The translations under genes and the position numbers were made by a program. A stretch of DNA of 64,000 bases from Candidatus Cryosericum septentrionale. GTDB taxonomy: Bacteria > Caldisericota > Caldisericia > Cryosericales > Cryosericaceae. This document shows, one piece after another, positions 12,718-57,626 of the stretch (position 1 is the stretch's first letter; every line of letters begins with the position of its first letter). The stretch lies in assembly GCF_003570995.1 (NCBI RefSeq), contig NZ_QXIY01000033.1:1-64000 (forward strand). Direction: 5' to 3'. The notes beneath the pieces are model-generated. The model saw only the letters and a list, made by a program, of their open reading frames with translations, searched no databases and had not been told where the DNA came from.

Positions 12718-13560
12718 ATGGCTATTCACATTGTAACGGACTCCACAAGCTGCCTTCCCATTGGTTTTGCCGAACAGCACGACCTTCCCGTCGTGCCGCT
12801 CAAGGTTTCGGTCGACGGAGTATTCTTCCGCGAGTTCGCGGAGATATCTCCTGATGCCTTCTACGCGAAGCAGAAAGCTGGAGCCAAGTCTGGCACCACG
12901 CAGCCCGGCCCCGAGGATTTCATCGCGGTCTACACCAGGTTGCTCGCAAACCCGGACGACGAAGTGCTGAGCATTCACCTGTCAGCTGCCACGAGTGGGA
13001 CACTCAACAGCGCCCACATTGCAGCCGAGCAGACCGATTCCAGGCGCATCCATCTCTACGATGTGCGGACGACAGGTCTCGGGCTCGGGTTCATGGTCAT
13101 GCAGGCCGTCAAGCTGGTTGCGGGCGGAGCCGGCATCGACGGCATTATCACGATGCTGGACGGGATGCAGCCTCGCACCCATATCTACTTCCTCGTTGGC
13201 ACAATGAAGTATCTCGTCGAAGGCGGACGTGTCGGGAAGGCGGCGGGCGTCGCAGCCGGCATCCTGCAGATCAAGCCCATCCTCACGTTCAAGGACGGGA
13301 TCGTCGACGTGTTCGAACGGCCGCGAACCATGCGTGTCGCGAAGGAGCGCATCAGGGTACTTATCGACCAGGCGGTCGTACGGGGCATCGAGTACATTGG
13401 GTTCCACTATGCGGGCAACAGAGCCGAGGTCGAGGCCATGCAGACTGAGTTCACGAGGCGCACAGGTATTCCGTCCGTCCTTAGCCAGTTGGGCCCTGTC
13501 CTCGGGTGCCTTACGGGACCCGAGACCGTGGCAGTCGTCATCGTCGACAAAGCAGTCTGA
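12718..13560 (+). CDS. DegV family protein, tandem copy 2
   Basis: 280 aa, nearly identical to copy 1 over its whole length, so these two are the youngest pair. It keeps HIVTDSTS, TTQPGPEDF and EGGRVGKAAG; the third motif reads SIHLSAATSGTLNSA. Near the C-terminus copy 1 has PCIGCHTGPE and this copy PVLGCLTGPE. The start is behind GGAGGAATTT at ideal spacing. The following 64-bp spacer is almost the same as that after copy 3, implying an older duplication with the same boundaries. Confidence 0.9.
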   Translation: MAIHIVTDSTSCLPIGFAEQHDLPVVPLKVSVDGVFFREFAEISPDAFYAKQKAGAKSGTTQPGPEDFIAVYTRLLANPDDEVLSIHLSAATSGTLNSAHIAAEQTDSRRIHLYDVRTTGLGLGFMVMQAVKLVAGGAGIDGIITMLDGMQPRTHIYFLVGTMKYLVEGGRVGKAAGVAAGILQIKPILTFKDGIVDVFERPRTMRVAKERIRVLIDQAVVRGIEYIGFHYAGNRAEVEAMQTEFTRRTGIPSVLSQLGPVLGCLTGPETVAVVIVDKAV

Positions 13561-13624
13561 ACAAGATGGCCAACTTGGGCGCAGCGGCGAATTCGGACAA
13601 GAATGAGTCGGAAAGGGGCCAAGC

Positions 13625-14467
13625 GTGAGCATCCATATTGTAACGGACTCCACAAGCTATCTTCCCATTGGTTTTGCCGAACAGCACGACCTTCCCGTCG
13701 TGCCGGTCAAGGTCTCGGTCGACGGAGTATTCTTCCGCGAGTTTGTGGAGATATCTCCTGATGTCTTCTACGCGAAACAGAAAGCTGGAGCCAAGTATGG
13801 CACCACGCAGCCCGGCCCTGAGGATTTCATCACGGTCTACACCAAGTTGCTGGCAAACCTGGACGATGAAGTGCTGAGCATTCACCTATCATCCCGCGTG
13901 AGTGGGACGCTCAATAGCGCGTACATTGCAGCCGAGCAGACCGATCCCAGGCGTGTCCATCTCTATGATTCGCGGACGTCCGGTCTCGGGCTCGGGTTTA
14001 TGGTCATGCAGGCCGTCAAGCTGGTTTCGGGTGGAGCCGGCATCGACGGCATTATCAAGGCGCTGGACGGGATGCAGCTACGCACGCATATCTACTTCCT
14101 TGTCGGTACAATGAAGTATCTCATCAAGAGCGGGCGCATCGGCAAGGCGGCGGGCGTCGCAGCCAGCATCCTGCAGATCAAGCCCATCCTCACGGTCAAG
14201 GACGGTATAATCGATGTGTATGACAGGCCGCGCACCATGCGGGCCGCCCTAGACCGCATGTGGGGGCTCATCGACCAAGCGGTCGTACGGGGCATCGAGC
14301 ATATTGGGTTCCACTATGTGAGCAATAGAGCCGAGGTCGAGGCAATGCAGACTGAGTTCACGAGGCGCACAGGTATTCCGTCCGTCCTTAGCCAGCTGGG
14401 GCCGGGCGTCGGGTGTCATATGGGACCCGAGACCGTGGCAGTTGTCATCGTCGACAAAGCAGTCTGA
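13625..14467 (+). CDS. DegV family protein, tandem copy 3
   Basis: 280 aa, GTG start behind GGAAAGGGG. It is close to copies 1 and 2 over most of its length but differs in regions likely to touch ligand: SIHLSSRVSGTLNSA (second Ser present) and YLIKSGRIGKAAGVAASI instead of VEGGRV. The second half (DVYDRPRTMRAA) matches copy 4 better than copies 1 and 2, which have DVFERPRTMR, so this gene may be a recombinant between lineages. Confidence 0.9.
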   Translation: MSIHIVTDSTSYLPIGFAEQHDLPVVPVKVSVDGVFFREFVEISPDVFYAKQKAGAKYGTTQPGPEDFITVYTKLLANLDDEVLSIHLSSRVSGTLNSAYIAAEQTDPRRVHLYDSRTSGLGLGFMVMQAVKLVSGGAGIDGIIKALDGMQLRTHIYFLVGTMKYLIKSGRIGKAAGVAASILQIKPILTVKDGIIDVYDRPRTMRAALDRMWGLIDQAVVRGIEHIGFHYVSNRAEVEAMQTEFTRRTGIPSVLSQLGPGVGCHMGPETVAVVIVDKAV

Positions 14468-28423: not shown

Positions 28424-28557
28424 GAGCTGAGTATATGTGGCCCGGGAATGTCATCAAGCGTCTGCGGGCAGGTCTTGCCCGTTCCTCTTGAAGTTGTGGT
28501 TGCACCGCGCCTGACAACTCCTACAATAATATTATCTATAGCAGGACATTCGAACGA

Positions 28558-28577
28558 GCACCCCAGTGGCGGGGTGC
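28558..28577 (+). promoter_or_regulatory. Hairpin in the leader of the Cas6-like gene
   Basis: GCACCCC / GGGGTGC form a perfect 7-bp stem around AGTGGC, 62 bp before ATG 28639 and about 20 bp after a promoter-like CTGACA...TATCTA pair at 28511-28538. The hairpin is therefore probably in the 5' untranslated RNA. CRISPR repeat hairpins have similar stems, so it may be a binding site for the protein itself; that is speculation. Confidence 0.35.
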
Positions 28578-28638: not shown

Positions 28639-30306
28639 ATGCGTATCAGGATCGAAGTACAGAGCGCTCTCGACAAGTTCATTTTGCCTCAGGGGTACAA
28701 CCCCTACGTGCAGGGGCTTGTCAATGCGTGCATCCCCGAAGACATCAAGTGGTCTGGCATCGCGACGGGCACGGAAGAGGTCCATTTCAAGCTCTTCACC
28801 TTCTCGCAGCTCTATGCGAAGTCGGTGGAGCGCATCGACATCGCCCCGCGTGAAGAAGCTGAAGCGGATGGACACGTTCACTATCAGTTGGTGATGTCCT
28901 CACCTGTCTGGTTCTACCTGTCGTCGCCCAGCCCCGAGTTCATCGAGGCGCTTTCGCCTCGCCTGGAGCAGGCCCATGACCTTCACCTCGAGCGGAACCT
29001 CGTGCAATCGGTGCGTGTCAGTGCCGCCTACCCCGTTACCATACCCGCTCACGGGTTGGTGACATGGCGCATTCGCACCATCAGCCCCATCACCGTGTAC
29101 CAGAGCGAGAGCAAGGACAGCAACTCCGCACGTTACTTTGCGCCCGACGACCCGTTATTCGCCAAGATTGTTCTGGACAATGCCGTGCGCAAGTACTACG
29201 CCTGGACACAGGAGAAGGCACCCAGCGATGGTTTCAGCATCATCTGTCTCGACCATACGCCGCATCTGGCTGTCATCTCGTTCAAGGACACGCCTGTGCG
29301 CGGCTATACAGGACGTTTCCAGTTGACTGGAGATGCCAAGCTGCTGTCGTTCCTGTACGAGTCGGGCCTGGGAGGCAAGAACTCTCATGGGTTCGGGATG
29401 TTCGACATCGCGCCTGAGGGAGAGGACGACGCTCATTGGCGTCGCAGGACAGAAGAAGATACCCATGAGGTGCGCAGGACTCCTTCGACGCCTATGGCCG
29501 CTGCCGATCAGGACAAACCGGACCGCCACGAGCGATCGAACAATCGTGGACAGGAAGGGCACGTGTGGCACGGCGAGCATCACGGTGCCGCTGGCGAGAG
29601 CAGCCCCTCGGGAAGTGCGGGATCCAAAGACGATCGGACGCATGTCAGCCGCCCGCGTCCCCAGGGTGAGCATTCAGATCGTCCGCATACCGACCGCCCT
29701 TATTCGGACAGGCCGCACACAGAGCGTTCTGCCTCGGACCGTCCACATACAGATAGACCGTATTCAGATCGTCCGCATACCGACAGGCCCTACTCTGACC
29801 GTCCCAGGACGGAGGGGCCGCGACTCGATGGCACGCCAGGAACGAGCCGGGGAACGGGGCGTCCAGGTACGGACAATCGAAGGTTTCAGTCTTCTCCGCG
29901 CGGTGGTACTTCTGATCGGAGAGGCCCTCGCGGCACAGAGGAACCGAATCGCAAGTTTGTAAGCCGCTATGCTCCCGACATCAAGCCGGTGAGCCACGAG
30001 AAGGCGGCTACCGGTTCCTACAGCATCTGGGATGGCAAGGCGAAGACCGAGCTGCCGCGCTTCGTCCGTCCGGACGGCACCGAGAGCACTGGCGGTCCTC
30101 GTCCGAACGAGCATCGTGGGGGACCTCGTCCTGATGCTTCTGGTCGTTCTTCAAGTGGAGACGGGCGCCCCCAGGGTGACAGACGTGGTGGGAGTTTTGG
30201 TGCTTCCAGACCAAGCGGAAGCTCTGGTTCAGTGCACCGTCCCAGCGGAGGGCACGGTGATCCGCGCGATCATAGGGGAGGCAAGGGCGGCCCCTACAAC
30301 CACTAG
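28639..30306 (+). CDS. Orphan Cas6-like RAMP endoribonuclease domain fused to long disordered tail
   Basis: 555 aa; ATG 28639 follows GGAGG by 5 nt. Residues 1-265 match Cas6, which cuts CRISPR precursor RNA: YNPYVQGLV and FKLFTFS near the N-terminus, ISPITVY mid-domain, then GYTGRFQLTG and the glycine-rich RNA-binding loop GLGGKNSHGFGMF at 243-255. The catalytic His and Tyr of Pyrococcus Cas6 have no clear equivalents: Asn29 replaces the Tyr and the region before Lys51 lacks the usual LHE; His49 is nearby. Residues 265-555 are disordered, Arg/Gly/Pro/Ser/His/Asp-rich, with SDRPHTDRPY repeats at 346-394. No CRISPR array or other cas gene is in the window. Confidence 0.75.
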   Translation: MRIRIEVQSALDKFILPQGYNPYVQGLVNACIPEDIKWSGIATGTEEVHFKLFTFSQLYAKSVERIDIAPREEAEADGHVHYQLVMSSPVWFYLSSPSPEFIEALSPRLEQAHDLHLERNLVQSVRVSAAYPVTIPAHGLVTWRIRTISPITVYQSESKDSNSARYFAPDDPLFAKIVLDNAVRKYYAWTQEKAPSDGFSIICLDHTPHLAVISFKDTPVRGYTGRFQLTGDAKLLSFLYESGLGGKNSHGFGMFDIAPEGEDDAHWRRRTEEDTHEVRRTPSTPMAAADQDKPDRHERSNNRGQEGHVWHGEHHGAAGESSPSGSAGSKDDRTHVSRPRPQGEHSDRPHTDRPYSDRPHTERSASDRPHTDRPYSDRPHTDRPYSDRPRTEGPRLDGTPGTSRGTGRPGTDNRRFQSSPRGGTSDRRGPRGTEEPNRKFVSRYAPDIKPVSHEKAATGSYSIWDGKAKTELPRFVRPDGTESTGGPRPNEHRGGPRPDASGRSSSGDGRPQGDRRGGSFGASRPSGSSGSVHRPSGGHGDPRDHRGGKGGPYNH

Positions 30307-30331: not shown

Positions 30332-30355
30332 GAGAGGCGCCATACGGCGCCTCTC
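30332..30355 (+). terminator. Hairpin terminator after the Cas6-like gene
   Basis: GAGAGGCGCC / GGCGCCTCTC, a perfect 10-bp stem with loop ATAC, lies 26 bp past the stop and is followed by TTCTGT. Confidence 0.65.
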
Positions 30356-30410: not shown

Positions 30411-30462
30411 ACTAGACGTCTGAAGCAGGTGCGGGTTTGTGCCCCACCGTCTGGAGGAGACC

Positions 30463-31923
30463 GTGGCAAGAACCGCATCAAGAAAAGAGATACTCGAGGG
30501 ACCCATCGTCCGGATCATGTTCAGACTGGCATGGCCGTTGATGATTTCCAGCCTGCTGCACTACCTGTACAATATGGCCGATACCTTCTGGGTAGGTCAC
30601 TTGCCCGTGTCGGAGAATGCCTCCGCGGTCGCCGGACTTCAGATAGCCGGCCCGGTCATTTTCTTCCTCATGGCATTTGCCTTCGGGTTCAACTCCGGAG
30701 GGCTGGCGCTCGTGTCCCAGTACATGGGTGCTCATCGGAAGGAGGAAGCGAATACGGCAGCTGCCAAGACGCTTTCGCTGTCGATTGTCTTCGGGCTGTT
30801 CATCATGGTTACAGGCGTCATCTTCTCACCTGCCCTGCTGAGGCTCCTCACCTCAGACCCTGCTGTTGCCCGCGCCGGAACGGTCTACACGCGTATCATC
30901 TTCATCGGCATGCCCTTTGAGTTCGTCGCGGCGGCGTATGCCCAGGTCATGGCAGCGTACGGGGATACGATCACGCCCATGCTCGTAAACTTGGCGACCG
31001 TCCTCGCTAATATTGTCCTGGACCCATTCATGATCTTCGGGTGGGGGCCCTTCGCGCGCATGACGGTGGCAGGGGCTGCGGTGGCCACCATTATCTGCCA
31101 GGCCATCGCCGCAGTCATCTCACTGGTCATACTGTTCAGGGGGAGACATGGTCTCCGTGTCAGCTGGCGCGACCTTCTTCCGGACTGGTTCTGGTACAGG
31201 CGCATTCTCAAGATCGGCCTTCCTGCTTCCATTGGTGTCTCTGGGACGTCATTCGGGTTTCTGGTTCTGACGGGCATCATCGGCCGTGTGCCCAACGCTA
31301 CAGTAGCACTCTCGGCATATGGCATCGGTGACCGCTTCATCAACATCAGTTTCGTTGCCATCGATGGTCTGTCGCTGGCCATCTCGACGATGGTCGGGCA
31401 TGCTTTGGGCGGGGACCTGCGGAAACGAGCCAACAGTGTCGTATGGACTGGCACTGCGCTGATGTTTGGCATGCTTGTGGGTGAAGGGATCCTTCTGTGG
31501 GTTTTCACGCCATGGTTGTTCAGGGCCTTCATTCCAACACAGCCAGCGATCATCAGCGAAGGCATCCTGTTCATGTCCCTGTTCCTCCCCTCCATTCCGT
31601 TCTTTGGCATCGTCAACGGGGTCCAGTCGGCGTTCCAGGGTTCAGGGCACAACACGCCGCCCATGATCATGCAGCTCGTACGTCTCTGGGGTCTTCGCGT
31701 CCCGCTGTCATGGTTCTTTGGGTTTGCCATGCACATGGGATCGCGCGGTATCTGGACCGGTATGCTGATCAGCAACGTCCTTGCGGCTGTTCTGGCACTG
31801 GTGTTTCTTGCAACGGCCGACTGGCACCACAAGGTCATTGAACACAGGCTTGCACTGGCTGAGGCGACCGATGAGACGGGCACGTCAGAGTTGATCCCGA
31901 CGCCGGCCGAGCCCGGGGTGTAG
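30463..31923 (+). CDS. MATE-family efflux transporter, copy 1
   Basis: 486 aa, twelve predicted helices in two halves; cation-coupled export of drugs or metabolites. Characteristic patterns include WPLMISSLLHYLYNMADTFWVG, FAFGFNSGGLALVSQYMGA and QSAFQGSGHN. GTG 30463 is chosen because GGAGG lies 5 nt upstream, whereas GTG 30439 has none. It is followed at 11 bp by a close paralogue; the pair may form a heteromer or reflect recent duplication with substrate divergence. Confidence 0.92.
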   Translation: MARTASRKEILEGPIVRIMFRLAWPLMISSLLHYLYNMADTFWVGHLPVSENASAVAGLQIAGPVIFFLMAFAFGFNSGGLALVSQYMGAHRKEEANTAAAKTLSLSIVFGLFIMVTGVIFSPALLRLLTSDPAVARAGTVYTRIIFIGMPFEFVAAAYAQVMAAYGDTITPMLVNLATVLANIVLDPFMIFGWGPFARMTVAGAAVATIICQAIAAVISLVILFRGRHGLRVSWRDLLPDWFWYRRILKIGLPASIGVSGTSFGFLVLTGIIGRVPNATVALSAYGIGDRFINISFVAIDGLSLAISTMVGHALGGDLRKRANSVVWTGTALMFGMLVGEGILLWVFTPWLFRAFIPTQPAIISEGILFMSLFLPSIPFFGIVNGVQSAFQGSGHNTPPMIMQLVRLWGLRVPLSWFFGFAMHMGSRGIWTGMLISNVLAAVLALVFLATADWHHKVIEHRLALAEATDETGTSELIPTPAEPGV

Positions 31924-31934
31924 GGGGGGCGGAC

Positions 31935-33407
31935 ATGAGCCGGCGTCCGACGATGCCCACGCGCGAGGAGATCCTTCACGGTCCAGTGGTGGCGACAATG
32001 TTCCGGCTGTCCTGGCCCGTCATGGTAAGCTCCCTGCTCAACATGGTGTACAACATGACCGATACGTTCTGGGTCGGGCACCTTCCAAAGACCGAGAACG
32101 CGGCAGCAGTCGCTGGGCTTCAGGTGTCAGGCCCTGTTGTATGGTTCCTCGTCGCATTCGCGTTCGGATTCGGGTCCGCAGGTCTCGCTCTCGTTTCGCA
32201 GTTCATGGGAGCGCACAACGAGGTTGACGCGGAGAAGGCGGCTGGTCAGACCATGTCTCTGGCAATCCTGCTTGGATTCGCTGTGGCGATCATCGGCGTG
32301 GTGCTGTCGCCGATTCTTCTCCCCGTCCTGACTCCAGACCGGGCCATTTCGGCGATGGCGATAAGCTACACGCGGATCATCTTCATCGGGATGCCCGCCA
32401 TCTTCGTCTCGGCCCTGTACGCGCAGATCATGAATGCTTATGGAGATACTGTTACGCCGATGCTCATCAACACGATCACCGTCGGTCTGAATGTCATCCT
32501 GGACCCGCTGATGATCTTCGGATGGGGCCCGTTTGTCCACATGGGTGTAGCCGGTGCCGCTCTTGCGACCGTCCTATGTCAGGTCCTGTCCGCCGTTATC
32601 TCGCTCTCGGTTCTCATGACCGGGAGGCGAAAGCTGAGAGTGACCTGGGGCGACCTGCGTCCCGAGATTGGCTGGGTCAAACGCATCCTCCGCATCGGAC
32701 TTCCCGCATCAGTCGGGGCATCCGGTACGTCCTTTGGGTTCATTGTCCTGACGGGCATCATCGGCCGCGTCCCCAACCCCACGGTTGCGTTGTCGGCGTA
32801 TGGGATTGGTGATAGGATGTTCAGTATCACTTCCCTCATCAACGATGGGGCTGGCATGGGCATAGCCACGATGGTGGGACGGGCGTTGGGTGCCGGCATG
32901 AAGGAACGGGCCACAGCCGTCGTGCGACAGGGGACGACTGCCATCATCGGCCTGATGGCAGTTGCGAGCGTTCTTCTGCGCCTCATTACGCCCCTGGTGT
33001 TCCGGGCGTTCATTCCGAGCCAGCCGGAAATCATCGCCGAAGGCGTTCTCTTCATGTCAATCTTTCTCTGGGCCAACCCGTTCTTTGGGCTCATGATGGG
33101 TGTCCAGTCGGCGTTCCAGGGCTCAGGACACAACGTTCCAAACATGATTCTGGACCTGGTTCGGCTATGGGGCCTGCGCGTGCCGCTGGCGTGGTTCTTT
33201 GCCATGACCCTTAAACTCGGATCACGTGGCGTCTGGATTGGCATGACTGCCAGCAACGTGGTGGCAGGTTTCCTCTCGCTCATTCTTGTGTTCACGATCG
33301 ACTGGCGCCAGAATGTCATCGAGCACTTGCTTCTTCCTGAGGCTCTCCTCATGGGCGAGGAAGCCATATCATCCATCTCCAGCGTTGAGGTCGACGACCG
33401 TCCGTAG
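31935..33407 (+). CDS. MATE-family efflux transporter, copy 2
   Basis: 490 aa, similar to copy 1 along its entire length (MVSSLLNMVYNMTDTFWVGHLP, GTSFGFIVLTGIIGRVPN and QSAFQGSGHN match almost word for word), so the two arose by tandem duplication. Differences cluster in TM7-TM8 (ISFVAIDGLSLAIST versus ITSLINDGAGMGIAT), a region facing the substrate cavity in MATE structures. ATG 31935 sits behind GGGGGGGCGG. Confidence 0.92.
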   Translation: MSRRPTMPTREEILHGPVVATMFRLSWPVMVSSLLNMVYNMTDTFWVGHLPKTENAAAVAGLQVSGPVVWFLVAFAFGFGSAGLALVSQFMGAHNEVDAEKAAGQTMSLAILLGFAVAIIGVVLSPILLPVLTPDRAISAMAISYTRIIFIGMPAIFVSALYAQIMNAYGDTVTPMLINTITVGLNVILDPLMIFGWGPFVHMGVAGAALATVLCQVLSAVISLSVLMTGRRKLRVTWGDLRPEIGWVKRILRIGLPASVGASGTSFGFIVLTGIIGRVPNPTVALSAYGIGDRMFSITSLINDGAGMGIATMVGRALGAGMKERATAVVRQGTTAIIGLMAVASVLLRLITPLVFRAFIPSQPEIIAEGVLFMSIFLWANPFFGLMMGVQSAFQGSGHNVPNMILDLVRLWGLRVPLAWFFAMTLKLGSRGVWIGMTASNVVAGFLSLILVFTIDWRQNVIEHLLLPEALLMGEEAISSISSVEVDDRP

Positions 33408-43493: not shown

Positions 43494-44576
43494 GTGGAAC
43501 AGCGGCTGATGATCCAGGAAGTGCGTGAGACGGTTTCAGTTCTCGAGCGCCTTGCGCACGAGGAAGGGCCGTCGATCGAGGGAATCGGGCAGCGGTTTGC
43601 CGCCACTGATCCTGACGTCGTCATTGAATCGGGACGTGGAACGTCGGACCATGCCTGCATGTACGGTCAGTATCTTATTGAATCGCTCTTGCGAATTCCC
43701 GTGGCTCTGGCGCTTGGGTCGTTGTACACGAACTACGGTCTGCCTCCCCGCATGCGGCGCGGCGCCGTCATCGCCATTTCGCAGTCGGGCGAGACGGAAG
43801 ATGTTTGCAAGGTTGCGGAGCAAGCCGTCAAAGACGGCACCTTTACAGTCGGCGTCATGAATGTCCAGGGCAGCACTCTCGATCGGACAGTAGCTCCTAA
43901 TTCGCTGTTTCTGCGGGCGGGACCCGAAGAGAGTATCGCCGCTACGAAGACCTTTACTGCATCACTGGCGGCACTCCTCCTTCTGGTCCACGCCGTCCGG
44001 GGCGACGCCTTTGACATCAGTACCGTCCTCGAATGTCTGGGAGGCATCGTCGAGCGAGAAGAAGAAGTGCGTCAGCAAGCACTGCGCTACACGTTCACTG
44101 ATGACTTTGTCGTGTTGGGCACAGGCTATTGCTACGCGAATGCCCTGGAGGGCGCTCTGAAGCTGAAGGAGACCTGCTATATCAATGCGCAGGGTCTCTC
44201 CTCGGTTGACCTTATCCATGGGCCGCTGGCTGTCCTCAATCCAGATCTGCCTGTCATCATGTTTGCTCCGAACGACGCATGTCTGGACCTCAACATAGCA
44301 GTTCTGGAGCGTATCAAGTCGACGCGGGCTCATGTGCTGGTGGTCTCCGACAGTGACAGAGCCTTGCAGTACGGTGACATTGCGTTTCGCATCCCCCATG
44401 CGGACCCGACTGTCTATCCACTGGAGAACGCCCTGTTCGCGCAACTGTTTGCCTACAGCCTCTCGATTGCACGTAAGCTGAACCCGGACAAACCCCGTTT
44501 TCTCCGCAAGATCAGTCTCGTCCAAGACAACGAACGTCGTGCAGGCAACCCCGATGCGGACACTCTGCATCCCTGA
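43494..44576 (+). CDS. Double-SIS-domain aminosugar isomerase/deaminase-like protein
   Basis: 360 aa from GTG 43494, behind GGGAGG. Two SIS domains as in the isomerase half of GlmS: ESGRGTSDHACMYGQYLIE and AISQSGETEDVCK in the first, ATKTFTASLAAL between, and GYCYANALEGALKLKETCYI with DLIHGPLAVLN in the second. There is no glutaminase domain, so it resembles FrlB/AgaS-type sugar phosphate deaminases or deglycases rather than GlmS itself. Operon partner of the ceramidase-like gene. The left terminal repeat of an IS begins 32 bp after the stop. Confidence 0.82.
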   Translation: MEQRLMIQEVRETVSVLERLAHEEGPSIEGIGQRFAATDPDVVIESGRGTSDHACMYGQYLIESLLRIPVALALGSLYTNYGLPPRMRRGAVIAISQSGETEDVCKVAEQAVKDGTFTVGVMNVQGSTLDRTVAPNSLFLRAGPEESIAATKTFTASLAALLLLVHAVRGDAFDISTVLECLGGIVEREEEVRQQALRYTFTDDFVVLGTGYCYANALEGALKLKETCYINAQGLSSVDLIHGPLAVLNPDLPVIMFAPNDACLDLNIAVLERIKSTRAHVLVVSDSDRALQYGDIAFRIPHADPTVYPLENALFAQLFAYSLSIARKLNPDKPRFLRKISLVQDNERRAGNPDADTLHP

Positions 44577-44608
44577 ACTACAGCACAGAAATCGATATGG
44601 CTATTGCG

Positions 44609-45870
44609 TGTCAACTCACGTAAGAATGTACGTGAACGATCAGGTCGTGAACTCACCAGAAACGGAGGCGTAGCTGCCACGTCTTTTGATGACCAACGGC
44701 TGCCTCCTTTTGGCAATTGCATCCAATTGGTCCTGGCAGAGGAAGATCTCATGGAGGAGGCTGGTCATGTCCAGTTCTGCACGGGTGGCAAGAAGAGGTT
44801 TCTTTGTCTCTTCGGGGACATCCTGCCGTGCGAGCATGTGTGCACAGGGGGTCTGTGCTGTGTTATACACCTTGGTGATGTGGCTCCCGGTCCTTTCCTT
44901 GTGGAGGAGCTTCTGGCTGGGAAGGAACCAGTTTACCAGGAGATGCAGTGCCTTGTACAGCCGGTTCAGCAGATCAATCTCCTCCCGGGTGTCATACCGG
45001 TCGTACCCCACGAACTTGCGGATGACAGAGTTATTCTTCTCTTCCACATGGGCGTTGTCGTTCCCCTGATACGGACGGGAACGGGTGAAGGTGATCCCCC
45101 GGGTATGCCAGAAGCGGACGAGATGGCCGTTCATGAACTCAGACCCATTATCCGCATGCAGGGAGATGACTCTCCCTGGGTACCTGCGGAGACACGACTC
45201 CAGTGCAGCCACTACATACACTTCTGCTTTCGTCCGTACGGCACCTGCTTCGGTCCATCCGGTGCTCCGGTCGGTGATGGTCAAGGTCCAGTTGAAGTCA
45301 TCCACCGCTTGTCCTCCGTCATGACCCACCAGGTCCACGGCCAGGACACCAGGGAGATCCAGGGGAGGGTCCATGCAGGTCTGTATGGGAATCCTGTCCC
45401 GCAGCGGGGTGCTCCGGGTATGGGAGATCCCATGGAGACGGTACCTCTTTCGCTCTCCAGAGAGGAGTCTCGGGGTCGTGGCAGGACTCATCTGGAGGAG
45501 GAGCCTTCGGGTCTCCTCATCGATACGGAGATGTCCATGGGTGACCAGGTTCTCCACGAAGAGGGCCATGCCTGCTGCCAGACGGACAGGACCCAGGAAC
45601 GTGCTTGCACTCCAGATGGCGATCAGTGCCTTCTGGACCGCAGGACCATACCGAGGTGGACGGTACTGGTGGATATGCTTCGTGGGGTCAGCCACCAGGA
45701 TGGTCTCTCTCAGAACGTACCGCTGTCCAGCCTGGTGCAGGACACGGGCCGCATATCTCCTGCAATACTCAGTGGATTCACAGAAGTCGTCCAGCATCAC
45801 CGACTTCTTTGCTTTCCTCGCCTTCAGACATGTTCGTGCTTTGACCATCGTGAGCTCCATTCCCGCTGTT
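44609..45870 (-). mobile_element. DDE-type insertion sequence, copy 1 (intact transposase)
   Basis: The outer end (44609-44636) is a terminal repeat, TCAACTCACGTAAGAATGTA and following, shared with the ends of copy 2. At the other side (45861-45977) I find no matching repeat, although the leader up to about 45925 is still alignable with the leader of copy 2; the inner end seems lost or altered where the AT-rich island begins. Coordinates of that end are therefore approximate. It is inverted relative to copy 2 at 52.3 kb. Confidence 0.75.
44640..45860 (-). CDS. rve/DDE integrase-type transposase (IS481/IS1202-like)
   Basis: 406 aa. N-terminal helical DNA-binding region, then an RNase H-fold core with the catalytic carboxylates in LAVDLVGHDGG, HADNGSEFMNGH and NAHVEEKNN. 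The frame is intact, so the element may be active. Compared with copy 2 it lacks about 22 residues after MELT. Exact IS family is not certain. The opposite strand also holds a long open frame, which is a shadow of this gene. Confidence 0.85.
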   Translation of the reverse strand: MELTMVKARTCLKARKAKKSVMLDDFCESTEYCRRYAARVLHQAGQRYVLRETILVADPTKHIHQYRPPRYGPAVQKALIAIWSASTFLGPVRLAAGMALFVENLVTHGHLRIDEETRRLLLQMSPATTPRLLSGERKRYRLHGISHTRSTPLRDRIPIQTCMDPPLDLPGVLAVDLVGHDGGQAVDDFNWTLTITDRSTGWTEAGAVRTKAEVYVVAALESCLRRYPGRVISLHADNGSEFMNGHLVRFWHTRGITFTRSRPYQGNDNAHVEEKNNSVIRKFVGYDRYDTREEIDLLNRLYKALHLLVNWFLPSQKLLHKERTGSHITKVYNTAQTPCAHMLARQDVPEETKKPLLATRAELDMTSLLHEIFLCQDQLDAIAKRRQPLVIKRRGSYASVSGEFTT

Positions 45871-45977
45871 TCTTTCCCACTCGAAGGGCCAGCAGCATTG
45901 TGCCCTCCTCGACCTCCATTTTGGATGAGGTGATGCGCTCATACAAGAATCTGCCAAATATGGTGTAGACTTAATTT

Positions 45978-47957
45978 ATGGTTGAGATTAGAGGGAGAGA
46001 TATTGAAGTTATTCTGTATCTTCTCGCACAGAAGTATCCTGTTTCTCCGTCTAAGATTTCCAAAGAAATCGATGTCAATATCAACACCCTCAGAAAGGAC
46101 ATTCCTCAGTTTAGAAAGTTCTTAGAAGAAAATGGATTGTCGCTCATAGCTAAGCCGAAGATAGGCTTAAGAATAGATGGCCCTCCTGAAAAAAAAGAAA
46201 ACCTCAGGGAAAAGCTCAATTCCCTTGGAAATAGGATCCTTCCCAGAAAAAGGAGAATATGGTACATAGCAGAAAGTTTCCTTTCTGAGGAACGAATCCC
46301 GACGATTGAAGATTTGTGCGAAACGCTTGATATTTCAAGACCTACTACTCTCAAATACATTCGTGAAGTCAAAGAGTGGCTTTCAAAAAAAGGAATTGAG
46401 GTTTTCGGAAAACCTGGTTTTGGCTATTATATTAAGGGAGACGAAGAAGACATAAGAGATGCCACAATAGACTCCATCAAGAATTTCTTAGAGTTTGAAT
46501 TTCAAACGGCGGCTTTGGAATTTTCACAGGGAAATCTAAGACATAATCTGCTTGGAGTTTTCGAGAATACAAACTTAGATGCAATTGAAAAATGCATAGA
46601 TGAGGTTCAAACACACATCAAGAAGAGATTTGTTGATGAAGATTTGCTGAACCTTGCAATTTCTCTCGCAGTATCTATTAAGCGTATAAAGAGAGACCAC
46701 AAAATAAACCTTGAAACAAAAAGGATTACTGAAATTCTATCCAACCCAATATCCCCAATTGTAGGAAGCAGTATTTCTTCACTCAAGGATCAATCTCAAG
46801 TAAGGTTTACGGACGACGAAATATCATATTTGACATTAAAGTTTATTGGTTCGAGAACGCAGGATGTGGAAGGCACAAGAGGCTTTACAACCACTTCGCA
46901 ATTCAAGAGAATTGCAGAGGAAATTGCACAGTTAGCCGGTAGATTATTGGGTTTGCCAATAGACAAAGAGGGTGAATTCGTCTCAATGCTAGCTCATCAT
47001 CTCGAATCTACAATCACAAAGATCAAAATGGGCGTTAAAATAGAAAACCCTATATTGGAGATGGTTAAGAAAGAATATCCCATCGCTTACGCTATTGCAG
47101 AAAGGGCTTCTAAAATGATCAAAGATAGATTTCATTTAGAAATGCCCGATGAAGAAAAAGGCTACATCGCAATGTATATTGCGGCTTCTCTTGAAAAAAT
47201 AAAACAACCAACAAAAAGAAAAGTTGTAGTTATTTGTCCAATGGGTGTTGCAACTTCAAAACTATTATACTACAAATTAACTAATGAAATCCCGGAAATT
47301 GAAATAGTTCAGGTTGGGTCGATTAAAGAGCTTGAAGAAGGGGAAATCCAACAGATAGTAGACCTTATAATCTCTACAGTGCCGCTATCAGGAGTAAAAG
47401 GAGTAAAGATTCCTTATGCTGTTGTCTCTCCATTTTTAAGAACAGAAGATAGAAAATTAATCAAAGAGATACTAAAAATACGAAAAGGAGAGTTGACAAG
47501 TGATATAGCAGAAGAAGGTGTGTTCGATGAGAGGCTAATTTTCCTGCAAATTAGTGTTAATTCATCAAGAGAAGTCATTAAACTCCTTGGAAATGTGCTC
47601 ATAAAAAATGGGTTTGCAAAAGATGGGTTAGTGGAAGACATTTTATCAAGAGAAAAGAAATTTCCAACAGGTATAAATACAGACATCCCAATTGCTATCC
47701 CTCACACAAGTCCAGAGTTTACAATTAAGAAAGGACTTGCAATTGCAACCCTCAAAAATCCCGTTAAGTTTCGGGAAATGGGTAACCCACAAAAATCCTT
47801 GGATGTAAGAATTGTAATAACGCCAGTTTTAACGGGGAAAGAAGAAGACGGAAAAGAGTTTTATGAGGTGATACAAAAATTAAGAGATTATAAAGTAGCT
47901 AATGAATTACTGCAGTGTTATTCTCCTCAAACAATTGAAAAAGTTTTTATAAAGTAA
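45978..47957 (+). CDS. PRD-containing BglG/MtlR-type PTS regulator with EIIB and EIIA domains
   Basis: 659 aa. Two N-terminal HTH domains (ISKEIDVNINTLRKDI; LCETLDISRPTTLKYIREV), two PTS regulation domains (about 185-395, with LAHHLESTI), an EIIB-like domain with its Cys in VVICPMGVATSKLL, and an EIIA-type C-terminus with IPIAIPHTSPEF. PTS phosphorylation of these sites sets activator activity. It probably controls the EIIA-EIIB-EIIC operon just downstream. Base composition is markedly AT-richer than the host flanks, a sign of acquisition. No good ribosome site precedes ATG 45978. Confidence 0.88.
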   Translation: MVEIRGRDIEVILYLLAQKYPVSPSKISKEIDVNINTLRKDIPQFRKFLEENGLSLIAKPKIGLRIDGPPEKKENLREKLNSLGNRILPRKRRIWYIAESFLSEERIPTIEDLCETLDISRPTTLKYIREVKEWLSKKGIEVFGKPGFGYYIKGDEEDIRDATIDSIKNFLEFEFQTAALEFSQGNLRHNLLGVFENTNLDAIEKCIDEVQTHIKKRFVDEDLLNLAISLAVSIKRIKRDHKINLETKRITEILSNPISPIVGSSISSLKDQSQVRFTDDEISYLTLKFIGSRTQDVEGTRGFTTTSQFKRIAEEIAQLAGRLLGLPIDKEGEFVSMLAHHLESTITKIKMGVKIENPILEMVKKEYPIAYAIAERASKMIKDRFHLEMPDEEKGYIAMYIAASLEKIKQPTKRKVVVICPMGVATSKLLYYKLTNEIPEIEIVQVGSIKELEEGEIQQIVDLIISTVPLSGVKGVKIPYAVVSPFLRTEDRKLIKEILKIRKGELTSDIAEEGVFDERLIFLQISVNSSREVIKLLGNVLIKNGFAKDGLVEDILSREKKFPTGINTDIPIAIPHTSPEFTIKKGLAIATLKNPVKFREMGNPQKSLDVRIVITPVLTGKEEDGKEFYEVIQKLRDYKVANELLQCYSPQTIEKVFIK

Positions 47958-48179
47958 TAATTCTACAAATAGTCAAAAAAAATACCACAATTTCTTTCCT
48001 ATCATAATAAATATCTGATTGACATTTGAACGCAAACCAATATCGTTACCTTAAGAAGGATAATGTGAACTTTGAAGATATGTTAAGAGAAGACTTAGTC
48101 TTTACAAAGGGGATTAAATCCTGATAAACCTCATAATTTATCAGCAGTTGTTAAAATTTAAAACTAAACGAGGCAATTT
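47958..48179 (+). other. AT-rich intergenic region with a short orphan ORF
   Basis: Between the regulator and the PTS operon. TTGACA at 48019-48024 with TATCGT 16 nt downstream is a weak promoter candidate. A 32-codon frame from TTG 48026 to TGA 48124 (ending FEDMLREDLVFTKGIKS) reads like the C-terminus of a longer protein and may be a gene remnant. An inverted AT-rich stretch (GATAAACCTCATAATTTATC) at 48122-48141 could be a regulator site. Confidence 0.3.
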
Positions 48180-48638
48180 ATGGAATACTCATTAAAAGAG
48201 TTATTGGTTAAGAACGCAGTGAAAGCGAAAGCGCAGGTAGCTGATCGAAATGAGGCTATTGATTATGTTGGTAATCTGTTAGTCAAGTCTGGCTCGATCA
48301 CAGGTGATTATATATTGGCGATGAAGAATGTTTTTGCGAAATTAGGACCATATCAGGTTGTTGTTCCTGGCATCGTTCTTTTACACGCACATCCGGGAAA
48401 CAGTGTGATTAAGACTTGTATTGGGTTTGTTACCCTAAAAAAGCCTATAGCCTTTGCTAATTCGCAGAATGATCCTGTTGATATCGTAATTGTTTTAGGA
48501 GCTCGTGACCGAAAAAGTCATATCAAAGCACTCGCTGAGCTAGCAAACCTACTCTCGAACCAACAGTACTTAACTAAGATCAGGAAAACCAAGAGCTCTA
48601 AAGAATTGTATAATTTGATTATATCATTAATAAGATAG
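48180..48638 (+). CDS. PTS EIIA (PTS_EIIA_2, ascorbate/galactitol type)
   Basis: 152 aa cytosolic phosphocarrier that takes phosphate from HPr. The active His69 is in PGIVLLHAHPG (family PGxALPHAR), followed by the strand FVTLKKPIAF and VLGARDRKSHIKAL, as in UlaC/SgaA. First gene of an EIIA-EIIB-EIIC-nagA-SIS operon. The ribosome site (CGAGGC) is weak. Confidence 0.88.
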   Translation: MEYSLKELLVKNAVKAKAQVADRNEAIDYVGNLLVKSGSITGDYILAMKNVFAKLGPYQVVVPGIVLLHAHPGNSVIKTCIGFVTLKKPIAFANSQNDPVDIVIVLGARDRKSHIKALAELANLLSNQQYLTKIRKTKSSKELYNLIISLIR

Positions 48639-48658
48639 GATTAAGAAAGGAGAGAAAA

Positions 48659-48982
48659 ATGCGTATTACTACATTGTGCGGAATGGGATTTGGAACGAGT
48701 ATGATGTTGAAACTTTTTATTGAGGATATTCTTAAAGAAAACAAAATGAAGAATGTAGAAGTAGTACCCACTGATCTAGGTTCTTTCAAAGGCCAAGAAG
48801 CTTCCACAGATATTGTTGTTGCACCGTTTGACATGGAGCGGCACCTAAAAAGCAGCACTTGTGTAGTAGTATTGATTAGAAATCTTGTTGACAAGCAAGA
48901 AATAAGGGAGAAGGTTCTGGATGCGATTGAGAAAGCAGAGCAAAGGAAAGGAGGTGATGAAATCGGGGAAGAAAAAAGTTAA
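48659..48982 (+). CDS. PTS EIIB (UlaB/SgaB type)
   Basis: 107 aa. The phosphocysteine is Cys7 in TTLCGMGFGTSMMLK, the P-loop-like signature of the ascorbate/galactitol EIIB family. It passes phosphate from EIIA to sugar at EIIC. A Lys/Glu-rich tail ends the protein. AAGGAGAG precedes the ATG. Confidence 0.9.
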   Translation: MRITTLCGMGFGTSMMLKLFIEDILKENKMKNVEVVPTDLGSFKGQEASTDIVVAPFDMERHLKSSTCVVVLIRNLVDKQEIREKVLDAIEKAEQRKGGDEIGEEKS

Positions 48983-49038
48983 ATTTTTGTATAGAGAAAA
49001 GGTAAATTATTAATAATCTAAAAAATAGGAGGTAAAGA

Positions 49039-50358
49039 ATGGGAGTTATAAATGCAATTATTGCGTTTGTTACATTACCCGCGATTATGCTTGGTATAAT
49101 TGCTTTGGTTGGTCTGCTCCTGCAGAAAAAGCCTGCAAGTGAAGTAATATCAGGCACCTTTAAGACTGTATTGGGACTACTTATCCTGGGTATTGGTACT
49201 GGTGCTTTAATTGCTGCATTAAATCCTATCCAGCAATTGTTTCAGTTAGGTATCCCTACTAGCAGCAAACTAATCACTTTTGTTACATTTGACGAAGGTG
49301 TAGTTGGTGCTGTTCAATCTGGCAATATTGGCAATATTGGCACTGAACTTGCCTTAACCATGCTGTTTGGTTACATCATTCATATTCTTCTTGCACGCTT
49401 CACCAAGTTCAAATATTTGTACTTAACTGGTCATATGATTTGGATCCATGCAGGAGCATTCGCTCTTCTCTTTCACTCTTTTGGCTTGCCTCTATGGCAA
49501 GTTGTCCTTTATGCATCTATTGTAGATGGTTTATATATGACTTTATCTCCTGCTTTGGCACAACCTATTATGCGTAAGATCACTGGTACAAATGATGTTG
49601 CTTTTGGTCATGGACAGACTTCTCTGAACATGGTCTGTGCCTGGCTAGGTAAACTCGTTGGCAAGCCAGAAGATTCTGCAGAAAAGGTTAAAGTCAAGGA
49701 TTCCCTAAGTTTTTTCCGTGACATGGCAATTTCCATCTCTCTCATCATGCTTATTGTATCTTTAATAGCTGGAATCATGGCTGTGGCTCGAGTTGGATCA
49801 GCAGCAGTTGAAAAACAAGTCAGTGGAGGCCAGAACTGGGTGGTATTTGCCATACTTCAAGGTCTTGGATTTACAGCTGGTGTACTTGTCTTACTACAAG
49901 GCGTGCGTATGTTGATTGCTGAGATCGTCCCTGCTTTCAAAGGTATCGGCGAAAAATTCATCAAGGGTGCCATCCCCGCACTTGACTGTCCAGTAATATA
50001 TCCATTCGCTCCCAATTCCCTAGTGTATGGCTTAATCTCTGGCGTTATTGGTCAGGTAGTTGGAATGATCACTCTTGCTTTAATAGGCTGGCCTATACCG
50101 CTGCCCAGCATGATTGCAGCCTTCTTCGCTTCCGGCTCAGGTGCCATCTTTGGTAACGCTACCGGTGGCAGAAGAGGTGCATGGCTTGGCGGTTTCGTTT
50201 GGGGATTCGTAGGTTGGCTTATGATTAGTTTTGCTTATAAGTTTCAAGTCTTTGGAAACTTAAGCGCTCTTGGTGCTACTAGTCTTGGCTTTACTTGTCC
50301 CGATGCAATTATTCCTAGCACTGTTATATGGCTAGTCGCTAAGTTATTTGGAGTTTAA
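49039..50358 (+). CDS. PTS EIIC permease (UlaA/SgaT-like, EIIC-GAT)
   Basis: 439 aa, about eleven helices. GNIGNIGTELALTMLFGYIIH, HMIWIHAGAFALLFHSFGLP and GHGQTSLNMV follow the ascorbate-type EIIC pattern. Sugar specificity cannot be read directly; the following nagA and SIS genes indicate an N-acetylated amino sugar rather than ascorbate. Composition is AT-richer than host genes but less extreme than the regulator. TAGGAGG precedes ATG 49039. Confidence 0.88.
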   Translation: MGVINAIIAFVTLPAIMLGIIALVGLLLQKKPASEVISGTFKTVLGLLILGIGTGALIAALNPIQQLFQLGIPTSSKLITFVTFDEGVVGAVQSGNIGNIGTELALTMLFGYIIHILLARFTKFKYLYLTGHMIWIHAGAFALLFHSFGLPLWQVVLYASIVDGLYMTLSPALAQPIMRKITGTNDVAFGHGQTSLNMVCAWLGKLVGKPEDSAEKVKVKDSLSFFRDMAISISLIMLIVSLIAGIMAVARVGSAAVEKQVSGGQNWVVFAILQGLGFTAGVLVLLQGVRMLIAEIVPAFKGIGEKFIKGAIPALDCPVIYPFAPNSLVYGLISGVIGQVVGMITLALIGWPIPLPSMIAAFFASGSGAIFGNATGGRRGAWLGGFVWGFVGWLMISFAYKFQVFGNLSALGATSLGFTCPDAIIPSTVIWLVAKLFGV

Positions 50359-50369
50359 TTATTAGTGAT

Positions 50370-51527
50370 ATGAAAGTGATCATCCATCCCTATCAGATAT
50401 TTACCCCTTACAATCTTTTAGAAAACACTGCCATTCAGATAGGAGATGGAAAAATTATCGATTTGATCGCTGCAGATAAGGCTAAATTTTTTCCAGATTT
50501 TGAATACATCCGCTTAGAAAAATTGATTGTCACACCGGGCTTAATCGATGTACATACCCATGGTGCCTGGGGTGGAGATACAATGGATGCGACCTTAGAG
50601 TCCCTTAACAAAATGAGTAACTTTTATGCGTCACATGGTGTGACTGCTTTTTACCCCACCACCTTGGCTGCAAGTGAAATAGAAATTCTCAAAGCTCTGA
50701 AAAATGTAACTCAAAATAGAAACAAAGTTGCTGGTGCACAGGTACTCGGAGTGCATCTGGAGGGACCATACTTGTCTCAGGAGTTTAGAGGTGCACAGTC
50801 ACCAAATGTATTACGCTTGCCCGATAGAAATGAGTATAAAAAATGGTTTGATTTTGATATTATCAGCCTAATTACTATTGCTCCAGAACTGGCAGGTAGC
50901 CAAGAGTTAATTGAATATGGAGTGAACAACGGCGCTGAGTTCGCAATTGGACACAGCGCCGCATCCTATGAAGAGGTTATCCACGCAGCAGACTTGGGTG
51001 TGCGACAAGCTACTCACGTATTCAACGGCATGAAGGGACTTCATCATCGTGAACCCGGCACAGTAGGAGGCATCCTGACAGATGACCGCATATATGCTCA
51101 GGTAATTGCAGATGGTGTTCATGTCCATCCTGCTGTTGTGAAGTTAATTATCCGCGCCAAAGGTTTTCACCGTACTATATTGATTACTGATTCAATTCGT
51201 GCCACTAGTTTGGCGGACGGTAATTATGAGCTTGGTGACATGATAATTAGAGTTAACGGTGGCATTGCTAGAACCTCATCCGGCGGACTTGCTGGCAGTA
51301 CCTTGACGCTGGATCAGGCCATTAGGAATGTAATTAAATTTGCTCAGATTTCATTCCAGGATGCCATTACAATGGCCACTTATTCTCCAGCAGAAGCCTT
51401 GCGTATACAGGATCGTAAGGGCCAGATTCGGGCAGGAGCAGATGCAGATCTTACTTTTTTTGATGAACGATATCAAGTAGTGGCAACTATGGTAAAAGGC
51501 AAACTTGTTTTTGGGAAAATAAAATAA
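50370..51527 (+). CDS. nagA: N-acetylglucosamine/galactosamine-6-phosphate deacetylase
   Basis: 385 aa amidohydrolase that removes acetate from GlcNAc-6-P or GalNAc-6-P delivered by the PTS. Metal and substrate motifs are VHTHGAWGGDT, GVHLEGPYLS with the ligand Glu, FAIGHSAASYEE, ATHVFNGMKGLHHREPG and ITDSIRATS with the catalytic Asp. It starts 11 bp after EIIC, with translational coupling likely because no strong ribosome site is seen. In the Aga pathway the same reaction is done by AgaA. Confidence 0.93.
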   Translation: MKVIIHPYQIFTPYNLLENTAIQIGDGKIIDLIAADKAKFFPDFEYIRLEKLIVTPGLIDVHTHGAWGGDTMDATLESLNKMSNFYASHGVTAFYPTTLAASEIEILKALKNVTQNRNKVAGAQVLGVHLEGPYLSQEFRGAQSPNVLRLPDRNEYKKWFDFDIISLITIAPELAGSQELIEYGVNNGAEFAIGHSAASYEEVIHAADLGVRQATHVFNGMKGLHHREPGTVGGILTDDRIYAQVIADGVHVHPAVVKLIIRAKGFHRTILITDSIRATSLADGNYELGDMIIRVNGGIARTSSGGLAGSTLTLDQAIRNVIKFAQISFQDAITMATYSPAEALRIQDRKGQIRAGADADLTFFDERYQVVATMVKGKLVFGKIK

Positions 51528-51557
51528 TAAAATAAAACGATAGAGGAGGTACATTAA

Positions 51558-52304
51558 ATGTCAAAATTGTCAAAGGAGTATTTAAAGCAAGTAATTAACC
51601 TAATTGAAAAGATCAGTGTTGAAGAAGAAGATGCTATTAATCAGGCTGCCAATATGATGGCAGATGCTATTCAAAAAGGCCACAAGATTTTTGCATTTGG
51701 CTGTTCGCACTCTTCCTTGCCCGTCCAGGACATCTATTATCGCGCTGGTGGTCTAATGTTGATCAACCCTATTTTTGCACCAGGCATTGCCTCTCTGGAT
51801 ATTCACCCGGTCACAATGACTTCTGGATTGGAACGATTAGAGGGACTCGCCAAAGTGTTATTAGATAACTATCCTACTCAAAAAGATGATGTGCTCATTC
51901 TCGTCTCCGTCTCCGGACGTAATGCAGTGCCAATTGAAATGGCGAAGATTGCTAAAGAGCGTGGAACCAAGGTAATAGGGGTCACTTCCCGGAAATATAC
52001 GGAAGGGGTTACGTCCCGTCACTCATCTGGCAGGAAAATGTACGAGTATGCCGACGTGGTTCTGGATAATAAGGTAGACAAGGGCGATGCTGTCATAGAA
52101 GTAGAAGGTGTCGCGGAGAGATTTACTCCAGCTTCGGGCGTTACTAGCACCGCCCTGCTACACGCATTGATCACAGCTACTATCGAGGAATTATTGAAGC
52201 GTGGCATCACTCCACCGATCTATGTTGCAGCCAATGTAGATGGAGGCGAAGAGCATAATGCCAAATTAAAGCAACAGTATAAAGATCAAATACTTAACTG
52301 GTAA
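51558..52304 (+). CDS. SIS-domain sugar isomerase (UPF0309 type)
   Basis: 248 aa single SIS domain: FAFGCSHSSLPVQDIYYRAG, ILVSVSGRNAVPIEMAK, VTSRKYTEG, TSRHSSGRKMYEYADVVLDN and the end motif YVAANVDGGEEHN. This group accompanies amino-sugar PTS operons, but the exact reaction is not established. A host-like paralogue, broken by an amber codon, lies at 62.4 kb in the second PTS cluster. Strong AGAGGAGG ribosome site. The stop is 9 bp before the terminal repeat of IS copy 2. Confidence 0.88.
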   Translation: MSKLSKEYLKQVINLIEKISVEEEDAINQAANMMADAIQKGHKIFAFGCSHSSLPVQDIYYRAGGLMLINPIFAPGIASLDIHPVTMTSGLERLEGLAKVLLDNYPTQKDDVLILVSVSGRNAVPIEMAKIAKERGTKVIGVTSRKYTEGVTSRHSSGRKMYEYADVVLDNKVDKGDAVIEVEGVAERFTPASGVTSTALLHALITATIEELLKRGITPPIYVAANVDGGEEHNAKLKQQYKDQILNW

Positions 52305-52420
52305 ATCTCGCATCGACTCATCAATAATGTACGTGAAATGTCTCCGTCAACTCATGAGAAAACGGAGGTGAAGAATGACAGAATACTGCTGGTCCTTGGG
52401 ATGAGAACAGGGCAGCGGGA

Positions 52421-53695
52421 ATGGAGCTTACGATGCCCCCGAGGATATTAGTCCAATCCGAGGGGCGGTTCCAGGAAGGCAAGAAACTCACGATGGTCAA
52501 GGCAGAGGCATATCTGAAGGCAGGGAAGACAAGGAAGTCGGAGGTGTTGGACGATTTCCGTGAGGAGGCGGGATACTGCAGGAGACATGCTGCCCGTGTC
52601 CTGCAGCAGGCAGGACAGCGGTACCTCCTGGGAGAGGAGATCCTGGTCGCTGATCCCACGAAGCATATCCACCGGTACTGTCCTTCCTGGTACGGCCCTC
52701 TTGTCCAGCAGGCACTGATCACCGTCTGGAGTGCAAGCACGTTCCTGGGACCGGTCCGTCTGGCAGCAGGCATGGCCCTCTTCGTGGAGAACCTCATGAC
52801 CCATGGGCATCTCCATGTCGATGAGGAGACCCGGCAGCTGCTCCTCCAGATGAGTCCTGCCACCATCGGGAGACTTCTGGCAACAGAGCGGCACATGTAC
52901 CGCCTGCATGAAGTCTCCTATACCCGGAGCACTCCTCTGGGTGGCAGGATTCCCGTTCAGACGTGCATGGACCCTCCTCTCCCCATCCTTGGCGTCCCCC
53001 GTGGACCTGGTGGGTCATGACGGAGGACAAGCGGTGGATGACTTCAACTGGACCTTGACCGTCACCGACCGGAGCACCGGATGGACCGAGGCAGGAGCCG
53101 TCCGCACGAAAGCAGAGATCTATGTGGTCGCTGCCCTGGAGACCTGCCTGCACAGGTACCCAAGGCATGTGGTCTCTCTCCATTCCGACAACGGGAGTGA
53201 ATTTATGAACGGACATCTCGTCCGCTTCTGCCGTACCAGGGGGATCACCTTCACCCGGTCCCGTCCGTATCACAAGAACGGGGCGCCCATGTGGAGGAGA
53301 AGAACAACTCCATCATCCGCAAGTTTGTGGGGTATGACCGGCATGACACCCAGGAAGAGGTGAACCTCCTGAACCGGTTGTACAAGGCACTGCATCTCCT
53401 GGTAAACTGGTTCCTTCCCAGTCAGAAGCTCCTCCACAAGGAGAGGACCGGGAGCCACATCACCAAGGTGTATGACCAAGCACAGACTCCCTGTGCCAGG
53501 ATGCTGGCACGGATGGATGTTCCAGAAGAGACAAAGAAACAGTTGCGATCAACATGTGCAGCACTGGACCTGACGAGCCTGCACCACGAGATCCTCCACT
53601 GCCAGGAACACCTGAATGCAATTGCCAAAAGGAGACAATCTTTGGTCATCAACGGTGGCAGCTACGCCTCCGTTTCTGGAGAGTTCACGACCTGA
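52421..53695 (+). pseudogene. Frameshifted transposase of IS copy 2
   Basis: Homologous throughout to the 406-aa transposase at 44.6 kb but split over three frames: the first open to 53020, the second carrying VDLVGHDGGQAVDDFNW to HSDNGSEFMNGH, the third from about 53285 (VEEKNNS) to the stop. One frameshift lies near 52990-53010, before the first catalytic Asp; another near 53275-53290, before the catalytic Glu. It cannot make an intact enzyme, though copy 1 could act on its ends. Confidence 0.88.
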
Positions 53696-53712
53696 TGGTT
53701 CACGTACATTCT

Positions 53713-53950
53713 CGTACGATGGAGGGAGATACTATTGAGAGTCATATGGATGAGAGGAATGGGTAGACCGTACGTACATTGAAGCAATGAGGGATCCTCA
53801 TGAGCTTGTACGATAGATGGATCGCCCTTCCAAAGTTTGTGTAGTATCAGAAGCGGAAGAAGGTTCTTCCAGCTTGGGTTGTGGACGAAATGAAACACTC
53901 ATGGAAGGGCAACCCATTACAAACTCTCCTCATATGCAAGGAGGTTTCGT
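53713..53950 (+). ncRNA. Candidate bridge RNA region of the IS110 element
   Basis: In the IS110 group the non-coding end upstream of the transposase encodes a bridge RNA with a target-binding and a donor-binding loop. Here ACGTACATT (53772-53780) repeats the nine bases left of the CT core in the target (53702-53710), and further on GTAGTAT (53841-53847) repeats the seven bases left of the CT at the element's own right end (54958-54964). Order, target guide then donor guide, is as in IS621. Matching right-side guides were not found by eye; exact RNA ends are unknown. Confidence 0.5.
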
Positions 53951-54949: not shown

Positions 54950-54982
54950 CACGGATCGTAGTATCTTTACGTGAGTTGACAC

Positions 54983-55170
54983 GGTAGAAGCACTAATAAA
55001 AAATGGTCCAGAGGGTAGTTGTCTGATGCTTGGTGTTAAGTGCAAGGGTTTTGAAGCAGGAAGTGAAAATAATAGTATTATTGTAGAGCAGCCTATGGTT
55101 TCGGAAGTAAAGAAGAAGTAGAAACACTTGATTTGGCATTAAGTCAGCCTTTAGATTTATTAAGGTATTT
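54983..55170 (+). pseudogene. Truncated 3' gene remnant beside the IS
   Basis: From the IS end, one frame reads GPEGSCLMLGVKCKGFEAG and continues to TAG near 55121; another picks up VETLDLALSQPLDLLRYLK to TAA near 55176. Together they look like the C-terminus of a gene cut by the IS insertion and then frameshifted. AT-rich, like the following KbaZ gene. Family not recognised; in a GalNAc operon a kinase would fit, but nothing in the sequence proves it. Confidence 0.35.
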
Positions 55171-57610: not shown

Positions 57611-57626
57611 CGGGAGGAAAGCTAAT

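Follow-up and report, generated by a model that had tools for sequence, protein, structure and literature searches.

The 64,000-nt stretch of Candidatus Cryosericum DNA analysed here (the window) carries on its forward strand, at 28639..30306, a gene for a tailed Cas6 homologue of 555 aa. The ORF begins with the ATG at 28639 and its stop codon ends at 30306, exactly as delimited in the first-pass annotation. The Cas6 pattern that had been noticed in the N-terminal part is genuine. Residues 1-257 (28639..29409, forward strand) are a true Cas6 homologue, matching Pfam PF01881 (6.9e-27; 95.2 bits against a cut-off of 23), NCBIfam TIGR01877 (2.6e-26; 93.3 bits against a cut-off of 58.65) and, over the same residues, the PADLOC model for Cas6b (3.5e-45). 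The predicted fold is Cas6-like as well. An AF2 model of this domain, for which 27 relatives were aligned, has a mean pLDDT of 83.5 and the tandem ferredoxin-like RAMP fold; in a Foldseek comparison with the PDB its top matches were all Cas6 or Cas6-related (5yi6, the Pyrococcus protein PH0350 (3qjj), 3ufc and 3i4h), with TM values to solved Cas6 of at most 0.77 by target length. A profile search based on sequence only returned the same set of PDB entries.

The remaining 298 residues form a tail rich in Arg (15%), Gly (14%), Pro (11%) and Ser (11%). The first-pass annotation had described a repetitive tail rich in Arg, Gly, Pro, Ser, Asp and His, and had emphasised its SDRPHTDRPY-type repeats. 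Such a tail is present, and the decapeptide repeats lie at residues 346-395 (29674..29823, forward strand), but they are its least conserved part, with a copy number that varies from 0 to 5 across the orthologues. The conserved part is an island of 59 residues, 435-493 (29941..30117, forward strand; RKFVSRYAPDIKPVSHEKA..GSYSIWDGK..LPRFVRPDGTESTG). Invariant columns make up 75% of the island, compared with 66% of the Cas6 domain and 7-15% of the remaining tail. Identity to the most divergent orthologue, that of genome G003 (UBA4822), is 85% for the island, 72% for the Cas6 domain and 26-31% for other parts of the tail, and dN/dS of the island is 0.03-0.24. The island is confined to this gene in the genus: it was found neither in other Cryosericum proteins nor in viral contigs, and 39 other genomes of the phylum yielded a single match, at E 0.08. 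It is a candidate docking motif or second RNA-binding element, and is the most specific new lead to emerge from the analysis. A structure model of the full-length protein is of low confidence throughout (mean pLDDT 35) and says nothing on the disorder of the tail or on the island.

Roughly 100 nt upstream of the start codon show conservation, and the last 45 nt hardly vary, the most divergent genomes included. From the alignments a candidate promoter was read at 28500..28527 (forward strand), consisting of a weak -35 element (TTGCAC), a spacing of 16 bp, and a conserved -10 element that is TACAAT in the window and TATAAT in most relatives; it is tentative because a consensus scan did not report it. 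A candidate 5'-UTR hairpin (GCACCCC-AGTGGC-GGGGTGC; 28558..28577, forward strand) has altered versions in G006 and G003 that keep most of the pairs. The consensus fold of the leader shows little covariation, and a slid version of the hairpin scores similarly on that measure; together, the alignments lend weak support to a conserved hairpin. Self-regulation through the leader would be a reasonable guess. Copies of the leader elsewhere in the genomes, as in a regulon, were limited to short chance matches, and an Rfam scan of the window gave no match. Downstream of the gene, a terminator-like hairpin was matched at 30332..30355 (forward strand) by a scan that gives no more such matches than shuffled sequence does; similar hairpins lie 3' of the gene in most orthologues.

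The Cas6 domain is present at 72-100% identity in 12 of the 15 Candidatus Cryosericum genomes, and orthologues at 95% identity occur in records named Ca. Cryosericum hinesii and terrychapinii. Two further genomes (G007, G014) have only the tail, at a contig end, and one (G006) has the leader and first codons (MRVRIEV), again at a contig end. With these two tail pieces and one leader piece, the gene or part of it is found in 15/15 genomes. Flanking genes are alike in those loci of the main clade that have readable flanks: an Nramp transporter lies upstream on the opposite strand, and downstream follow two MATE genes, an MgtE_N/CBS protein and a second Nramp. The neighbourhood seems different in G014 and G006. 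In G014 (L090, G014:C183) the tail end of the orthologue adjoins other genes, with two ORFs of more than 1400 aa, and the gene may sit elsewhere there. In the window itself the MATE-type transporters (30439-33407) are related tandem genes directly downstream, and they stay together across the genus.

Other parts of the window have features of their own. Two very similar tandem ORFs of 280 aa at 12718-14467 (xIHIVTDSTSxLPIGFAEQHDLP...) look DegV-like by eye and point to a recent duplication. The region 44000-60000, with sugar-metabolism-like genes, has a GC content of 41-48% compared with ~58% and was probably acquired; an apparent IS110-like transposase, also recognised by eye, lies within this low-GC stretch (53951-54949).

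Pairwise dN/dS among orthologues is 0.04-0.12 for the Cas6 domain, i.e. purifying selection is strong, and reading frames are intact except at contig ends and at one assembly gap. The tailed Cas6 homologue is a core gene of Candidatus Cryosericum, present genus-wide. In a maximum-likelihood tree the 12 orthologues form one clade (100/100), which is sister to the CRISPR-linked Cas6 of genome G004 (100/99); because the branches are long, the exact sister relation is uncertain. The stem of the orthologue clade measures 1.67 changes per column and the branches within it are short. This is the pattern expected of a single change of role, after which the protein was held fixed.

Most CRISPR-type relatives from the same class carry the motifs LIYxxFS...LHxxG......FKLFTFS (alignment A1, 28 sequences). 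According to the first-pass annotation the glycine-rich loop and Lys51 were kept and the usual catalytic His and Tyr were missing, and the alignments bear this out. At the position of the catalytic Tyr (LIY motif) the protein has Asn29 (28723..28725, forward strand; alignments A1 and A2), which is invariant among the orthologues in A2. At the position of the catalytic His (LHxxG motif) it has Ile41 (28759..28761, forward strand; A1), replaced by Asp in G003/UBA4822. Both replacements hold for 12/12 orthologues that cover these positions. Lys51 of the FKLFTFS motif (28789..28791, forward strand) is invariant in 28/28 sequences of A1, and the glycine-rich loop GLGGKNSHGFGMF (29365..29403, forward strand) is invariant in the orthologues and aligns with the loop of solved Cas6 structures. 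The canonical CRISPR-linked Cas6 of G004 has kept Tyr, His and Lys. As judged from these alignments, the tailed homologue appears to have lost the usual cutting residues.

An enzyme might nevertheless be built on other residues. The protein could be an active endoribonuclease for a housekeeping RNA, with a catalytic site made of Lys51 and perhaps His49 or further residues, and with the tail aiding substrate capture. The invariance of Lys51 fits this, as does that of His49 in the orphan clade, although in CRISPR-type Cas6 the residue aligned with the latter varies. The motif His is moreover not universal: four related Cas6 from another family in the class (L023, L025, L026, L029) have Tyr instead, thus loss of His alone is no proof of lost cutting, and in Sulfolobus, Cas6 enzymes cleave although they lack the canonical His. 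However, here both Tyr and His are lost throughout the clade, the region around them (KWSGIATG) has been rebuilt, and a conserved substrate-like repeat was looked for and none was found. We consider a nuclease of this kind possible, but rather unlikely.

The first-pass annotation stated that the 64 kb hold no CRISPR array or other cas gene. No array was found in the 64,000-nt window, and the neighbours that were examined include no cas gene. The same is true of the orthologues, which lie outside CRISPR loci: no array was found near any of them, and their neighbours are the same non-cas genes. What holds for the locus does not hold for the genome, as a type I-G system is present on another contig of the window's own genome (G000, contig C45; L072, 7883-16142). 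Here, an array of 15 repeats of 36 nt adjoins csb2, csb1, a gene that encodes 737 aa where csx17/cas8g would be expected, and cas3, which is a type I-G arrangement; cas1 was not found in G000. In type I-G, the nuclease that processes crRNA is Csb2 (PMC9638904), thus the system on C45 should not need the tailed Cas6 homologue. In G004, one contig carries an array together with cas1, cas3 and a canonical cas6 of its own; type III RAMP genes and more arrays lie on others. A second Cas1 in G004 (L041 / G004:C40:2382-3242) lies within an open frame of 866 residues and may be a fusion protein; the array beside it shares its repeat with the contig of the type III locus.

Across the 15 genomes, matches were obtained for Cas1 in 1/15, RAMPs in 1/15, Csb2 in 1/15, Cas3 above the cut-off in 2/15, and arrays in 2/15. 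CRISPR-Cas was thus recognised in two genomes, G000 and G004. The other 13, many of them incomplete, had no Cas1, RAMP, Csb2, Cas3 above the cut-off or TTGAAAS-type array. The array search covered repeats holding TTGAAAS-type sequences and no other types; among cas proteins the searches took in Cas1, RAMPs, Csb2 and Cas3, but no class 2 effectors. Solitary copies of the I-B-like repeat of G004, which might have survived as a ligand, numbered 0 in G000, and one match with 3 mismatches in G009 is compatible with chance.

Cas6 acting in trans is known in the field, and the first-pass annotation had offered a trans-acting Cas6 as its alternative. The protein would then serve arrays that are gained and lost within the genus, as the systems in 2/15 genomes, the window's own included, might suggest. 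This is disfavoured: both genomes that bear CRISPR bring their own processor (Csb2 in G000, canonical cas6 in G004), 13/15 genomes with the gene have no CRISPR by the searches run, the catalytic residues are lost, and solitary repeats of the G004 type are absent elsewhere but for the one mismatched copy. Such a role seems to us improbable.

More doubtful still is a role against CRISPR, in which the protein would bind repeat RNA as a decoy and thereby impede CRISPR-Cas systems entering the cell, or would be a regulator of defence that sequesters crRNA. A Cas6 fold and glycine-rich loop kept without the cutting residues, in a genus where CRISPR is rare, would suit a decoy. Yet G000 and G004 have both the gene and CRISPR systems, and anti-CRISPRs are usually mobile and variable, whereas the tailed Cas6 is a syntenic core gene; we regard this as very unlikely. 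Lost catalytic residues and a repetitive tail can also give the impression of decay, as if the gene remained from a lost CRISPR locus and owed its tail to read-through into low-complexity sequence. This is hardly credible given the dN/dS values for Cas6 domain and island, the intact frames and the presence of the gene in every genome, and a pseudogene was rejected on these grounds.

We therefore favour, with a probability of about 0.57, a domesticated and probably non-cleaving RNA-binding protein of Cas6 type, with a probably disordered tail and a putative docking island, which acts outside CRISPR immunity. The homology and fold, the loss of Tyr and His, the genus-wide retention, the selection, the conserved island and the lack of linkage to CRISPR were computed directly. 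A domesticated RAMP protein had been proposed in the first-pass annotation, and presence across the genus, synteny, purifying selection, the lost Tyr and His and the 13/15 genomes without recognisable CRISPR speak for it; that the genome itself has CRISPR speaks against it. Other points against this reading are that Lys51 is kept, that a protein may lack Tyr and His and still cleave, and that the systems in G000 and G004 may mean a link to CRISPR in some strains. Neither of the two results that the first-pass annotation had named as refuting its proposal was obtained, namely a predicted fold unlike a tandem ferredoxin RAMP, or homologues that sit within CRISPR-Cas loci. Domestication is well supported by comparative evidence, and from sequence we infer the molecular function: binding of RNA, absence of cleavage, and the roles of tail and island.

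Compared with Cas6 proteins of TIGR01877/PF01881 (Cas6b-type, e.g., PDB 5yi6 and 3i4h), the window protein has in common the sequence family, the predicted RAMP fold, the glycine-rich loop and Lys51. It differs in the replacement of Tyr and His, the position outside a CRISPR locus, the 298-residue tail and the status of a genus-wide core gene. Pyrococcus PH0350 (3qjj) and 3ufc, among the best fold matches, are described as non-catalytic Cas6-related proteins, and canonical catalytic residues are missing there as they are here. In a sequence profile alignment PH0350 lacks the aligned Tyr and Lys, and according to the title of entry 3qjj it binds RNA. Unlike the window protein these two have no such tail or island and come from CRISPR-bearing archaea, whereas the window protein keeps Lys51 and its gene persists where CRISPR was not found. 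Csb2 (GSU0054), the Cas5-Cas6 fusion of type I-G found on C45 of G000, shares a distant Cas6-like domain, but it lies in an I-G operon beside an array, in 1/15 genomes, and has its own role in processing.

With its RAMP fold and glycine-rich loop, the Cas6 domain of the domesticated protein would most likely bind structured RNAs of the cell, either a single one or a small specific set. As the Tyr and His used for cutting are lost, it would act mainly by binding and not as a crRNA-processing nuclease; the effect might be masking, stabilising, refolding or translational control, with cutting lost or minor. The Arg/Gly-rich, probably disordered tail may make weak multivalent contacts with RNA or with itself, and the 59-residue island may dock a protein partner or provide a second site for RNA. 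Cryosericum records are from cold lake sediments and thawing permafrost. The N-terminal region of IF2 is a disordered RNA-related region that phase-separates in the cold (PMC11838494), and it resembles the tail if this is indeed a disordered extension on an RNA-related domain; there is no relation in sequence, and condensates of the window protein would be an analogy. In such cold habitats, factors that act on RNA structure and have disordered regions are plausible, but the link to the window protein is speculative.

On the evolutionary side, we suggest that a Cas6 gene moved out of CRISPR immunity and was then fixed in the core genome of Candidatus Cryosericum. Exaptation would have taken place in the ancestor of the genus, where the protein, gaining the putatively disordered tail and the conserved island for docking, would have become an indispensable, CRISPR-independent RNA regulator; we lean slightly towards this scenario. 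Host-repurposed CRISPR components are of active interest, and most known cases keep a guide RNA or transposons. In the open-access papers searched we found no report of Cas6 domestication of this kind, and nothing relevant on CRISPR or a lone Cas6 in Cryosericum. A lone TIGR01877 annotation need not imply CRISPR activity. If the reading is true, a Cas6 fixed as a core gene where CRISPR is scarce would be a clean example from nature of how an RNA-binding protein of CRISPR turns into a housekeeping factor, and Candidatus Cryosericum would offer a concrete system for asking what RNA has taken the place of the repeat and to what the island in the tail binds.
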